Below are positions 49,820-53,177 of a DNA stretch of 64,000 bases, piece after piece. Every line of letters begins with the position of its first letter. Position 1 is the stretch's first letter. The notes under the pieces are model-generated. The model was not told where the DNA came from. It did not search any database and saw only the letters and a list, made by a program, of their open reading frames with translations. The stretch lies in the NCBI GenBank assembly GCA_902531175.1, contig CACADE010000003.1, positions 1 to 64,000 of the forward strand. The letters are read 5' to 3'. A program made the translations under genes and the position numbers. Origin of the DNA: an uncultured Pelagibacteraceae bacterium (lineage in GTDB: Bacteria; Pseudomonadota; Alphaproteobacteria; Pelagibacterales; Pelagibacteraceae).

Positions 49820-50749
49820 ATGAAAATTTTAGGAATAGGCAATGCGATCGTAGATGTAATTTGTAAAGTTGATGAAAATTTTATTAAACAAAATAATCTA
49901 ACTAAAGGTACAATGAAACTAATATTTGATGATAAGGAATTTAAATCAATGTTATCCAATTTAAAAATCGAAAAAACTATTTCTGGTGGATCAGTTGCCA
50001 ATTCCATAGTTGGACTTTCTCAATTAGAAAACAAGGTTGGATTCATAGGTAAAATAAATGACGATGACCTTGGAAATAAATATGAAGAAGGTTTAAAAAC
50101 TGAAAATGTAGATTATTTTTATTCAAAAAAAAAGGAAGAATTGCCAACCGGGACCTGCTTAATATTAGTCACACCAGACTCGGAAAGAACTATGTGTACA
50201 TTTTTAGGTACAGCAGGAAAAATAAATGAAAGTGATATTAACCCTGAAGATATAAAAAAATCAGAAATGATATTTCTAGAAGGTTATCTGTGGGACGAGG
50301 GAGAACCAAAAAAAGCTTTTGAAAAAGCTATACAAAATGCAAACAAAGTTGCCATGTCACTATCTGATCAATTTTGTGTTGAAAGACATAAAAATCATTT
50401 CTTAGATCTAGTTAAAAATAAGTTAGATATAACTTTTGCTAACGAACAAGAAATTACATCTTTAATAAGCGCTAAAAATTTTGACGAGGTTGTAGATTTT
50501 GCTAAAAATTTGGGAAAATGGTTGGTAATAACAAGAGGTGAAAAAGGTGCAATTTCTATTAACGGTAACGAAATAATTGAGAATGGTATTATTAAAAATT
50601 TAAAAATAGTAGATTTAACTGGAGCTGGTGATTTGTTTGCTGCAGGTTTTTTACATGGAATGATAAATAAAATGGATACACTTGAATGTTTAGAAAAAGG
50701 TAAAGAAATGTCATCAAAAGTTATTCAACAAATTGGAGCAAGACTTTAA
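49820..50749 (+). CDS. PfkB-family kinase, adenosine-kinase-like
   Basis: 309-aa ribokinase-fold kinase: MKILGIGNAIVDVICKV, TISGGSVANSIVGLSQL (substrate loop) and the C-terminal DLTGAGDLFAAGFLHG with the catalytic Asp. The alphaproteobacterial subgroup with this layout is usually annotated as adenosine kinase, but ribokinase- or fructokinase-type substrates cannot be ruled out. It starts 1 nt after nth. Confidence 0.88.
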   Translation: MKILGIGNAIVDVICKVDENFIKQNNLTKGTMKLIFDDKEFKSMLSNLKIEKTISGGSVANSIVGLSQLENKVGFIGKINDDDLGNKYEEGLKTENVDYFYSKKKEELPTGTCLILVTPDSERTMCTFLGTAGKINESDINPEDIKKSEMIFLEGYLWDEGEPKKAFEKAIQNANKVAMSLSDQFCVERHKNHFLDLVKNKLDITFANEQEITSLISAKNFDEVVDFAKNLGKWLVITRGEKGAISINGNEIIENGIIKNLKIVDLTGAGDLFAAGFLHGMINKMDTLECLEKGKEMSSKVIQQIGARL

Positions 50750-50750
50750 G

Positions 50751-51359
50751 ATGGGACTTTCCAAAAATATTTTTAAATATTTTCCACAACCTATATTCCA
50801 TTACCAAGTAAACAATTACATAGAACATAACGCCGACTTATTAAATCATATATATGAAATGCATAGGATTGACCCTAAAGGTCTTGCAAGGTCGAATCAA
50901 GGAGGTTGGCATTCAAAACCTTTCAATCTTAAAGACAAAAATAGTGCTCCATTTAAATTTTTTATGGCTATTCAAATGTATGTGGCTGATACTTTTAAAG
51001 AATACGGTTGGCGTTATGAACCAGGGAAAATTAATTTAACTGAAATGTGGGCAATAATTAATAAAAAGAATAATTTTAACGTAGAACACACCCACCCAAA
51101 TAATTACTTAAGTGCAGCATACTATGTTAAAGCACCAGAAAACTGTGGATCGTTTATGGTTACTAATCCGAATGTAATTTCACGAGAAAGAATAACTTCA
51201 AGTGATAAACGTACAGAATTCAATCAGAATGTTGCTCAGATAAAACCACAAGAAGGAGATTTATTGCTTTTCCCAGCTTATTTACCTCATTCTGTAGGAA
51301 TGAATCTTTCAGATGAAGATAGGATAGTTATTAGTTTTAATGTTGACATTCTCAAGTAA
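50751..51359 (+). CDS. putative 2OG-Fe(II) oxygenase (TIGR02466 type)
   Basis: 202 residues. EHTHPNNYLSAAYYVKAP provides the first iron-ligand block and LLLFPAYLPHSV the distal histidine, matching the TIGR02466 family of uncharacterised Fe(II)/2-oxoglutarate oxygenases. The ATG directly after the kinase gene is preferred to a TTG 18 nt upstream. The substrate is unknown. This is the second such oxygenase of the window. Confidence 0.8.
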   Translation: MGLSKNIFKYFPQPIFHYQVNNYIEHNADLLNHIYEMHRIDPKGLARSNQGGWHSKPFNLKDKNSAPFKFFMAIQMYVADTFKEYGWRYEPGKINLTEMWAIINKKNNFNVEHTHPNNYLSAAYYVKAPENCGSFMVTNPNVISRERITSSDKRTEFNQNVAQIKPQEGDLLLFPAYLPHSVGMNLSDEDRIVISFNVDILK

Positions 51360-51360
51360 T

Positions 51361-51465
51361 TTATTTTTTTCTTTTAAAGCTTCCCTTACCTTTTTTAGGT
51401 TTAATAATTTTAGGTTTATATTTTTTTGAAAATAATTCTTTTGCTATAAAATTTTTTTTTTTCAC
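51361..51465 (-). CDS. ArfA-like alternative ribosome-rescue factor (34 aa)
   Basis: Very short, strongly basic protein from a GTG start: an N-terminal lysine run, then IAKELFSKKYKPKIIKPKKG, ending GKGSFKRKK. The KKGKGSxxRK block is the ribosome-binding core of ArfA, the protein that recruits RF2 to ribosomes stalled on messages without a stop codon; the preceding ELF-x6-KPKK resembles the LFRxRVxKPKK segment of ArfA. The GTG overlaps the stop of the upstream regulator (TAGTG), indicating coupling. It contains an 11-A run and ends 1 nt from the convergent oxygenase gene. Confidence 0.7.
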   Translation of the reverse strand: MKKKNFIAKELFSKKYKPKIIKPKKGKGSFKRKK

Positions 51466-52016
51466 TAAATTAAATATCCATCTTTTGAGCTTTTAATAAA
51501 ATTGTTATCATTAAAATATTCTTTTATTTTTTTTCTTAATCTATATACGTGAGTTTCTACAGTATGAGTCTCTAATTTTGACTTATGACCCCAAACTTCA
51601 ATTTGAAGCTCATTAATTGATCTTGGTCTATTTGAGTGATTTAAAAAATTTATAATCGCAACTTCTTTTTCAGTTATGATTAATGATTTATTTTTTTTTT
51701 GTATTTTTCTAGAGGTATAATTAATAATATAATTTCCAATTTTAATATTTTTTTTATTTTCAATTTTTTTTTTTAAAAATTGTATATTGAGTGTATAGAT
51801 CAATTTATCGATTGAAATTGGCAAACTGTCGATGAAAACTTGATTTTTACTTTCTAGATTGTCAGATGAGATCACTAAACTTTGCTTATCATTCAAAACA
51901 TTATCTAAATTTTTATTTTTTGTTTTAATAACTTCAAAACTCAATAGGTGTTTTAACTCAAATAATATATTATATAAAACTGTGTTATTGTGAATTACTA
52001 AATATTGTTTTTCCAT
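51465..52016 (-). CDS. orphan winged-helix (OmpR-type) regulator with degenerate receiver
   Basis: 183 residues. The C-terminal half is an OmpR/PhoB-type DNA-binding domain (ITEKEVAIINFL, SINELQIEVWG, THTVETHVYRLRKKI). The N-terminal half (YLVIHNNTVLYNILFELKHLL, then LPISIDKLIYTL) has receiver-like secondary structure but I see no phospho-acceptor Asp in the expected place. No histidine kinase is nearby. It is divergent from the L,D-transpeptidase-like gene (11 bp) and is coupled to the ArfA-like gene. Confidence 0.8.
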   Translation of the reverse strand: MEKQYLVIHNNTVLYNILFELKHLLSFEVIKTKNKNLDNVLNDKQSLVISSDNLESKNQVFIDSLPISIDKLIYTLNIQFLKKKIENKKNIKIGNYIINYTSRKIQKKNKSLIITEKEVAIINFLNHSNRPRSINELQIEVWGHKSKLETHTVETHVYRLRKKIKEYFNDNNFIKSSKDGYLI

Positions 52017-52027
52017 GTAATAAGATT

Positions 52028-52522
52028 ATGACAATTATTATAAAAAATAAACAGACACTTTCATTCAAAGAATTTACTCTAAAATGTTGTATTGGAAGAA
52101 ACGGATCTACAAGTAAAAAGAAAGAAGGTGATAAAAAAACTCCAAAAGGTACTTTTTCTATAGACAAACTTTATATAAGAAACGACAGAATTAAAGTTCC
52201 TGAAACGAATTTAGAAATTATAAAAATAAGAAAAAATATGGGATGGTGTGATGATGTTAATGCGAAATTAAAATATAATAAAATGGTTAATATTAAAGAA
52301 AATGTTCATTATGAAAAACTTTTTAGGGAAGACAACAAATATGATCTTTTGATTCCAATAAAGTATAATTGGAAAAATCCAAAAGTTCCAAAGGGGAGTG
52401 CAATATTTATTCATTTAACAAAGGATTATAAACCCACATTAGGTTGTGTCGGTTTATCATTTAAAGATTTTTTAATACTTATTAAATTAATTAATAAGGA
52501 AACTAAAATTAAAATTTTGTAG
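52028..52522 (+). CDS. L,D-transpeptidase (YkuD)-domain protein
   Basis: 164 residues. The block GDKKTPKGTFSI near the start and SAIFIHLTKDYKPTLGCVGL near the end (catalytic His and Cys) match the YkuD L,D-transpeptidase family. No signal peptide is seen, so either it is exported another way or it acts in the cytoplasm. Its 3' end overlaps yggS by 14 nt (convergent). Confidence 0.85.
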   Translation: MTIIIKNKQTLSFKEFTLKCCIGRNGSTSKKKEGDKKTPKGTFSIDKLYIRNDRIKVPETNLEIIKIRKNMGWCDDVNAKLKYNKMVNIKENVHYEKLFREDNKYDLLIPIKYNWKNPKVPKGSAIFIHLTKDYKPTLGCVGLSFKDFLILIKLINKETKIKIL

Positions 52523-53177
52523 ATCTCTGCCCAAAAATACCTGAACCAATTCTTAAATAAGTTGCACTATAACTTAAAGCCTCAATATAATCTGAAGACA
52601 TACCCATGCTTAATTCATTTAAGCCCAAATTATTTTTTAAATCGAGCATTTTTTTAAAATATAATTTATTATTTCCATCTATAGGTGGTATGCACATTAA
52701 ACCTATAACATTTAAATTTAGTTTTTTGCAAAAATTGTAAAATTCATCTAATTGGTTTTGAGATATACCTGATTTTTGCTCCTCATTTCCAATGTTTACT
52801 TGTATAAAAAATTTGGCCGAAATATTATTCCGCTCTTGGTAATCAGATATTTTTTTAGCTAACTTTTCACTATCCAAAGAATGGATATAGTCAAAAAGTT
52901 TTAGAGCAAATTTAATTTTATTAGTTTGTAATTTTCCTATTAAGTGAAGATTTAAATCTACATTATTATTTTTTATAGTTGTCCATTTTTCTATTGCCTC
53001 TTGTACCTTATTTTCTCCAAAATCTTTATGACCATAATCAATCAAGTATTTAATATGATCTAATTCAAATGTTTTAGAAACAGCAATTATATTTGGATTT
53101 ATTCTTAATTTATTTTGATTAATATTTTCCTTAACTTTTTCTTGGATATTAAGTAAGTTTTTTACAGTTTGATGCAT
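52509..53177 (-). CDS. yggS: PLP homeostasis protein YggS
   Basis: 222-aa alanine-racemase-fold PLP-binding protein that buffers vitamin B6. PNIIAVSKTF contains the PLP lysine; YGHKDFGENKVQEA, LHLIGKLQTNK, MGMSSDY and RIGSGIFGQR are conserved blocks. Its ATG is the bottom strand of the ATGCAT hexamer whose top strand is the ThiE-like start. Confidence 0.95.
   Translation of the reverse strand: MHQTVKNLLNIQEKVKENINQNKLRINPNIIAVSKTFELDHIKYLIDYGHKDFGENKVQEAIEKWTTIKNNNVDLNLHLIGKLQTNKIKFALKLFDYIHSLDSEKLAKKISDYQERNNISAKFFIQVNIGNEEQKSGISQNQLDEFYNFCKKLNLNVIGLMCIPPIDGNNKLYFKKMLDLKNNLGLNELSMGMSSDYIEALSYSATYLRIGSGIFGQRSTKF
53172..53177. other. shared divergent start codons (ATGCAT)
   Basis: The palindromic hexamer holds the plus-strand ATG of the ThiE-like gene and the minus-strand ATG of yggS, so the two coding regions overlap by 6 nt head to head. 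Each gene's promoter and ribosome site would then lie inside the other gene. Confidence 0.6.

Follow-up and report, generated by a model that had tools for sequence, protein, structure and literature searches.

A short open reading frame at positions 51361..51465 of the window (the whole stretch of DNA analysed, 64,000 nucleotides from an uncultured Pelagibacteraceae bacterium) encodes a conserved protein with homology to the core of ArfA, and it adjoins or overlaps the gene of a winged-helix regulator. The product is likely a minimal ArfA that would recruit RF2 to non-stop ribosomes. ArfA was found in 0 of 2,376 alphaproteobacterial genomes in an nhmmer search of representative RefSeq genomes (PMC11633108), is stated to be 'not present in Alphaproteobacteria' in PMC10070815, and according to PMC8012679 occurs only in some of the beta- and gammaproteobacteria. 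In the open-licence literature searched, no prior report of ArfA in SAR11 chromosomes was found. What appears to be new is an ArfA relative in the chromosomes of SAR11, within a class that published surveys had reported as ArfA-free and in a group described as the most abundant group of marine microorganisms (PMC12753301). The features of the locus are as follows.

51361..51465, minus strand: arfA-like gene of 34 codons with GTG start and TAA stop (Pfam, PDB profile search, conservation)
51379..51396, minus strand: KKGKGS codons, the equivalent of E. coli ArfA K33-S38 (sequence; SAR11 profile aligned with E. coli ArfA chains; PMC5378476)
51463..51467, minus strand: TAGTG, with one base common to the regulator stop and the arfA start (sequence; regulator overlap in 57 of 74 loci)
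51465..52016, minus strand: orphan OmpR-type winged-helix regulator gene with a shortened receiver-like N-terminal domain (PF00486, AlphaFold, Foldseek, 74 of 74 loci)
50733..51359, plus strand: convergent 2OG-Fe(II) oxygenase-like gene (TIGR02466), with the ATG at 50751 as its probable true start
49820..50749, plus strand: PfkB-family kinase gene, the usual convergent neighbour of arfA in relatives (PF00294, E 9.7e-43)

The C-terminal end of the 34-aa product is KPKKGKGSFKRKK. A basic 34-codon frame with this end, started by GTG and overlapping the upstream stop codon as TAGTG, had been described in an earlier note made from the letters alone, and it is present in the sequence exactly as claimed; its length, put there at about half that of the E. 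coli protein, compares as 34 aa with 72 aa. The ArfA homology proposed in the same note, together with a profile search as the way to check it, was borne out by two such searches. In Pfam, PF03889 (ArfA) was the sole match of the window protein (E 9.8e-6), with window residues 5-34 aligned gap-free on model positions 12-41 of 44, at a score of 25.4 bits, i.e., 0.1 bit under the gathering cut-off of 25.5. A profile of 24 SAR11 sequences searched against 177,635 PDB sequences gave six matches at E <= 10, all six of them ArfA (best E 1.3e-7). The window's own genome, which comprises 25 contigs totalling 1.30 Mb at 96.9% completeness, contained a single ArfA match, at 23.2 bits and below the cut-off. 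No NCBIfam match was obtained for the window protein or for ten relatives, and in PHROGs the window protein matched only weakly, to families whose function is unknown (E 0.0058 and 0.014). At the match position of L057, an ArfA-like stretch was read, MARVKNPAAKAVRSEQFRPRRVKARKGIKAYRRRSKHPSG.

Aligned with E. coli ArfA, the SAR11 protein is alike over about 30 gap-free residues, including N14, I16, L20, Y/F25, V/I29, K31 and KKGKGS(Y/F)xRK, but it is 34-41 aa long instead of 72, has no KH motif, ends at an ordinary stop codon with no hairpin found, and has other gene neighbours. By this alignment, it amounts to the core of ArfA, shortened at either end and with its N-terminal contact remodelled in part.

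The ArfA core is under purifying selection. This was observed in a set of 81 ORFs, made up of the window ORF and the best 80 of 414 relatives fetched via the pattern PKKGKGS[FY], a set biased to close relatives of the SAR11 profile. The per-site mean pairwise difference at codon positions 1, 2 and 3 was 0.142, 0.078 and 0.405 (29 core codons, 80 distinct sequences), and the median dN/dS was 0.126 in the 1,151 pairs with 0 < pS < 0.6, every one of which lay below 1. The ORFs (34-41 aa) start with ATG in 62 cases, GTG in 11 and TTG in eight, as assigned by a script that took the nearest possible start codon (ATG, GTG, TTG or CTG) lying 20 or more codons ahead of KKGKGS. All 80 of the named loci retained belong to Pelagibacteraceae or Pelagibacter, in agreement with the alphaproteobacterial, SAR11 placement given earlier.

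The earlier note had proposed looking for a conserved short ORF in other SAR11 genomes, and had named loss of the frame or of the C-terminal block in relatives as what would speak against the gene. The opposite was found, since KKGKGSF is present in 81 of 81 ORFs; 80 of these were fetched by the pattern, so that the invariance of the block is partly a matter of selection. The pattern-free Pfam search pointed the same way. At E <= 0.01, PF03889 matched 237 of 297 family genomes (103 of the 128 that are of good quality) and was represented in 11 of 14 genera, and 159 of the 297 scored above the curated cut-off. The profile of alignment A1, at E <= 0.001, matched 203 of 297 genomes of the order, 116 of 150 good-quality genomes and 9 of 11 genera. 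Six of these order-level matches, three in genus g5 and three in another family (f174), were weak, with E between 1e-5 and 5e-4. Alignment A1 consists of 24 of 31 sequences, from 24 genomes, and leaves out L003 as well as L010, L018, L019, L020, L025 and L032, which are close to kept rows.

The gene is not found in all members of the group. Among 30 regulator loci from 30 genomes (own genome included), a KKGKGS frame was found within 400 bases downstream of the regulator in 16. Ten of the other 14 loci belong to genus members without any arfA match genome-wide, and the remaining four to genomes with an arfA match elsewhere (G007, G009, G012 and G022). The counterpart of the regulator at 51465-52016 is thus also present in 10 genomes without arfA, in which the convergent PfkB 3' end lies within about 50 bases of the regulator stop, as read by eye. 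The gene arfA is therefore a discrete unit, lost or never gained in some lineages. It is dispensable, being missing in 10 of 10 genus members examined that have the regulator but no match. Two more genomes (G228 and G232) are also arfA-less, and their regulator matches are weak only. Just after the regulator at locus L154 (G017:C1), in a genome without an arfA match, an apparent remnant of an arfA start was observed, reading MVIKLNKK and then stops. In G026, a complete SAR11 genome (one contig, 1,308,759 bases) that we take to be probably 'Ca. Pelagibacter ubique' HTCC1062, no arfA was found by PF03889, by the SAR11 profile or by reading of the locus (L157, G026:C1).

The regulator ORF ends in TAG, the G of which is the first base of the arfA GTG. 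A regulator gene lies upstream on the same strand in all 74 assessable loci, i.e., those with more than 212 bases upstream (in the other seven of the 81, 61-212 bases are available). Overlap with arfA was found in 57 of the 74, a distance of 1-55 bases in 12 and one of 662-2,100 bases in five. Residues 111-178 of the regulator match Trans_reg_C (PF00486, E 2.1e-11), and no receiver domain was recognised by Pfam. The AlphaFold model, built with 27 sequences (mean pLDDT 85, pTM 0.64), shows a short receiver-like part before the winged helix, and its best PDB matches in Foldseek were OmpR-family response regulators (E 6.6e-8), with a full-length TM of only about 0.45. No invariant aspartate was present in the N-terminal part in alignment A4, which makes control by phosphorylation unlikely.

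On the other side, a convergent PfkB gene is found downstream of arfA in 78 of the 81 loci. The oxygenase-like gene is downstream in 14 of the 81, the window included, where it lies between the PfkB gene and arfA and its stop is 1 nt from the arfA stop. In E. coli, arfA is tail-to-tail with mscL (4-base overlap) and has zntR upstream, and SAR11 arfA likewise has a convergent neighbour and an upstream regulator; since the neighbours are unrelated in the two organisms, the likeness of arrangement is an analogy only.

The residues expected at the contact with RF2 were compared on both partners. The E. coli ArfA tail is reported to occupy the empty mRNA channel, with K33-S38 located there; the backbone of residues 25-29 binds RF2 residues 213-217, L19, L24 and F25 contact RF2 W319, V198 and F217, and A18 is packed in the minidomain (PMC5378476). 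The RF2 of the window's own genome (E 5.7e-104 against E. coli RF2) is identical to the E. coli protein at F217, at W319 and in the 213-217 segment, with position numbers counted from SPF 205-207. Apart from I in place of V198, this putative partner carries the ArfA-contact residues.

On the ArfA side, all 81 ORFs share the equivalents of N14, L20, P at 32, K33-S38, F at 39 and R41 (E. coli numbering; K33-F39 partly through the selection of loci), and the equivalents of I16, L20 and F25 are hydrophobic throughout, the F25 site being Y in 78 and F in three. The neighbouring positions differ from E. coli: the A18 site is K in 80 and R in one, the L19 site is D/E/N and the L24 site K/R in all 81, and P23 is kept in only one. 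In the window protein, these equivalents of A18, L19 and L24 are K, E and K (K9, E10 and K15). The substitution A18T inactivates E. coli ArfA (PMC5378476), but A18C is active in vitro (PMC4245945), indicating that position 18 tolerates some change.

Both ends of the protein are short. Fifty-eight of the 81 ORFs start at E. coli position 10, and 69 end at position 43 or 44, with none going beyond 48 and the window protein ending at 43; the E. coli protein is described as functional when cut at Asn47 and not when shorter (PMC5378476). An equivalent of H45 of the KH motif (K44-H45) was found in 0 of the 81 ORFs. This motif is described as common to ArfA and BrfA, its importance being untested (PMC8012679), and we regard it as characteristic of the E. 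coli protein and do not require it for membership in the ArfA sequences. With the KH motif, the non-stop hairpin and parts of the patch that activates RF2 all missing, details of the mechanism may be different from those in E. coli.

RF2-dependent rescue is the best inference, and a changed choice of release factor would be its main rival. In that case, the protein would be a descendant of ArfA that still binds the ribosome but has given up the E. coli mode of using RF2, acting with RF1 too, like ArfT, or serving as a mere plug of the mRNA channel. Such a shift, which we consider rather improbable, would fit the changed A18, L19 and L24 equivalents in 81 of 81 ORFs, and ArfT of Francisella gives it a precedent, being a 40-aa protein with a KGKGS-like stretch, like the SAR11 ORF, that uses RF1 or RF2 (PMC6299226; compared by description). 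However, ArfT is described there as having no hydrophobic residue at the F25 position, whereas Y or F is found at this site in 81 of 81 SAR11 ORFs; the RF2 contact residues are retained in the own-genome RF2, and the PDB profile matches are ArfA only. BrfA of Bacillus subtilis is also a small RF2-recruiting factor with a basic tail, but it has about 62 aa in mature form, a KH motif and an in-gene terminator, and is described as unrelated to ArfA (PMC8012679).

The regulation of the SAR11 gene also appears to differ. In E. coli, RNase III cleaves the arfA message at an in-gene hairpin and so leaves a non-stop mRNA, whereby tmRNA represses arfA (PMC3989581). In a folding control, the E. coli arfA ORF gave a long stem and z -2.27 (200 shuffles), passing the threshold of -2 only narrowly. 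An in-gene hairpin at z < -2 was found in 0 of 81 SAR11 ORFs (60 shuffles each, mean +0.39) and, with 60 downstream bases added, in 1 of 81; the window stretch gave z +1.35. Given how narrowly the control passed, and with SAR11 ORFs of only half its length, the absence of the hairpin is suggestive. Terminator-like sites in 50700-52600 numbered 0 against 0.5 in shuffles, a difference that says little. The lack of a detected hairpin or terminator and the early stop codon argue against a switch of the E. coli type, and since the core is followed at once by an ordinary stop codon, with no hairpin found, translation probably yields the short active protein directly. Judging from the GTG start and the regulator overlap, translation may be low and coupled.

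The earlier note had also proposed checking for tmRNA and ArfB, and in this genome tmRNA and SmpB were found to be present and ArfB was not detected. Alpha-type tmRNA was found in the own genome. Of 101 genomes of the genus it occurs in 82, with 73 above the cut-off, and of the 17 of good quality in 16; it is also present in 24 of 24 chosen genomes, including the 10 without arfA. The own genome encodes two RF-1-domain proteins, one of which is RF2 (SPF and switch-loop Trp) and the other RF1-like; the latter we take to be RF1 from its PxT motif. An RF-1-domain match was found in 143 of 147 family genomes, with three in G028 alone and at most two in 53 of 54 good-quality family genomes. Since the two of the own genome are RF1 and RF2, and 53 of 54 genomes have at most two, ArfB is undetected as far as the RF-1 model sees. 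The 34-aa product itself was also considered as ArfB and this was rejected, as it contains no GGQ and hence no GGQ-bearing RF-1 domain. At G008:C2:72032-72364, the open frame containing an RF-1 domain match runs to 5,699 residues, which may reflect an assembly gap or masking.

In the mechanism proposed for SAR11, the basic tail (K22 to K34) would enter the mRNA channel left empty when a ribosome stalls at a truncated mRNA 3' end, and the middle strand (Y16 to I20, corresponding to E. coli F25-V29) would pair with the RF2 beta-sheet, whereupon RF2 would open and hydrolyse the peptidyl-tRNA. The protein would be synthesised at a low level through the weak start and the coupling to the regulator, and the gene would be on irrespective of tmRNA failure, unlike E. 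coli arfA, which is on only when tmRNA fails. SAR11 ArfA would be a backup to tmRNA-SmpB in a lineage with no ArfB detected.

Relatives of the protein were also found in phages. At least 247 viral contig stretches encode an ArfA relative, of which the best 80 were kept and 41 of the 80 translated. ArfA relatives are thus common on marine viral contigs (L064:5001-5102, L068:5001-5096, L071, L086 and others among the viral loci L058-L137); some lie beside T4-like genes, some have an N-terminal MPGKWDGRSR extension and some a longer C-terminal part. Ten neighbour proteins chosen from five viral neighbourhoods all matched phage families: major head protein, helicase, late sigma factor and SbcD-like nuclease at L064; clamp loader and polymerase processivity factor at L068; endolysin at L059; exonuclease and DNA-binding protein at L071; and virion structural protein at L086. 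ArfA has been reported in pelagiphage HTVC027P, grown on 'Ca. Pelagibacter ubique' HTCC1062 (PMC12753301), which is also the host in the HTVC027P record, and g10 of Citromicrobium phage RXM is annotated as ArfA (PMC8953757). HTVC027P gp30 contains the core with KKGRGS (PF03889 20.2 bits, below the cut-off). Like SAR11 ArfA, it and many of its viral relatives have the core NP.AKE/D..(S/T)PKYK...(I/V)(I/V)KPKKG(K/R)GSFKR, but gp30 differs in its 58 aa and N-terminal extension, and some phage copies in a longer C-terminal part (L086, 142 aa). A tblastn search of the phage collection with a single 35-aa query returned nothing, which is not evidence of absence because HTVC027P gp30 is in the collection; the miss may be due to the low-complexity filter on lysine-rich queries or to divergence.

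These viral relatives, on at least 247 stretches and including one in HTVC027P, would be in keeping with a phage-borne gene that was recently left in the chromosome and is useless to the cell. This origin was rejected as highly unlikely, since the gene occupies the same site beside the same regulator and PfkB gene in many genomes, is under purifying selection and is present in 11 of 14 genera. A chance or non-coding open frame, to which the very short, AT-rich and lysine-rich ORF and its borderline single-sequence score could point, is refuted with near certainty by the codon-position pattern, the dN/dS, the narrow length range and the distribution across genomes. Another small basic ribosome-associated protein that is not ArfA would fit the basic composition alone, but with ArfA as the only result of Pfam and of the PDB profile search it has practically no probability and was rejected.

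In a class-wide sample, the SAR11 profile matched 18 of 385 genomes, 15 outside Pelagibacteraceae and three within, one of the loci (L055) having internal stops. Nine non-SAR11 alphaproteobacterial proteins were examined in Pfam; five have no KGKG-like part, and three of those five fit DUF7230 (PF23876) better than ArfA. DUF7230, of unknown function, was found in 7 of 385 alphaproteobacterial genomes, five over the cut-off, and was not found in the window's genome; no mention of its name was found in the open-licence literature searched. A profile-profile comparison between SAR11 ArfA and seven DUF7230 sequences, two of them below the DUF7230 cut-off and with no unrelated basic family as control, gave a probability of 96%, with a three-residue gap in the PKKGKG block of DUF7230. 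At L169-L175, and also at L044 and L050, DUF7230 resembles ArfA with this three-residue gap, and it may be another rescue factor.

Taken jointly, these results allow a tentative reading, which we hold to be possible though rather less than even in probability: an ArfA superfamily of rescue factors of 34-60 residues would span SAR11, a scattering of further Alphaproteobacteria (with DUF7230 perhaps included) and a large marine phage pool. The SAR11 form would be stop-bearing, not controlled by tmRNA, and would activate RF2 via a rebuilt N-terminal contact, and phages would bring their own copy, also into hosts without arfA such as, probably, HTCC1062. If G026 is HTCC1062, then the model strain has no arfA of its own and receives one from its phage, which would account in part for the gene having been overlooked. 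The viral relatives suggest that marine phages often carry ribosome rescue. As a natural minimal protein, SAR11 ArfA is suited to testing which RF2 contacts matter. If the gene works as predicted, ArfA would prove common in a group believed to lack it, a shorter protein than the E. coli truncations suggest would suffice for function, and the tmRNA-linked switch of ArfA would not be universal.
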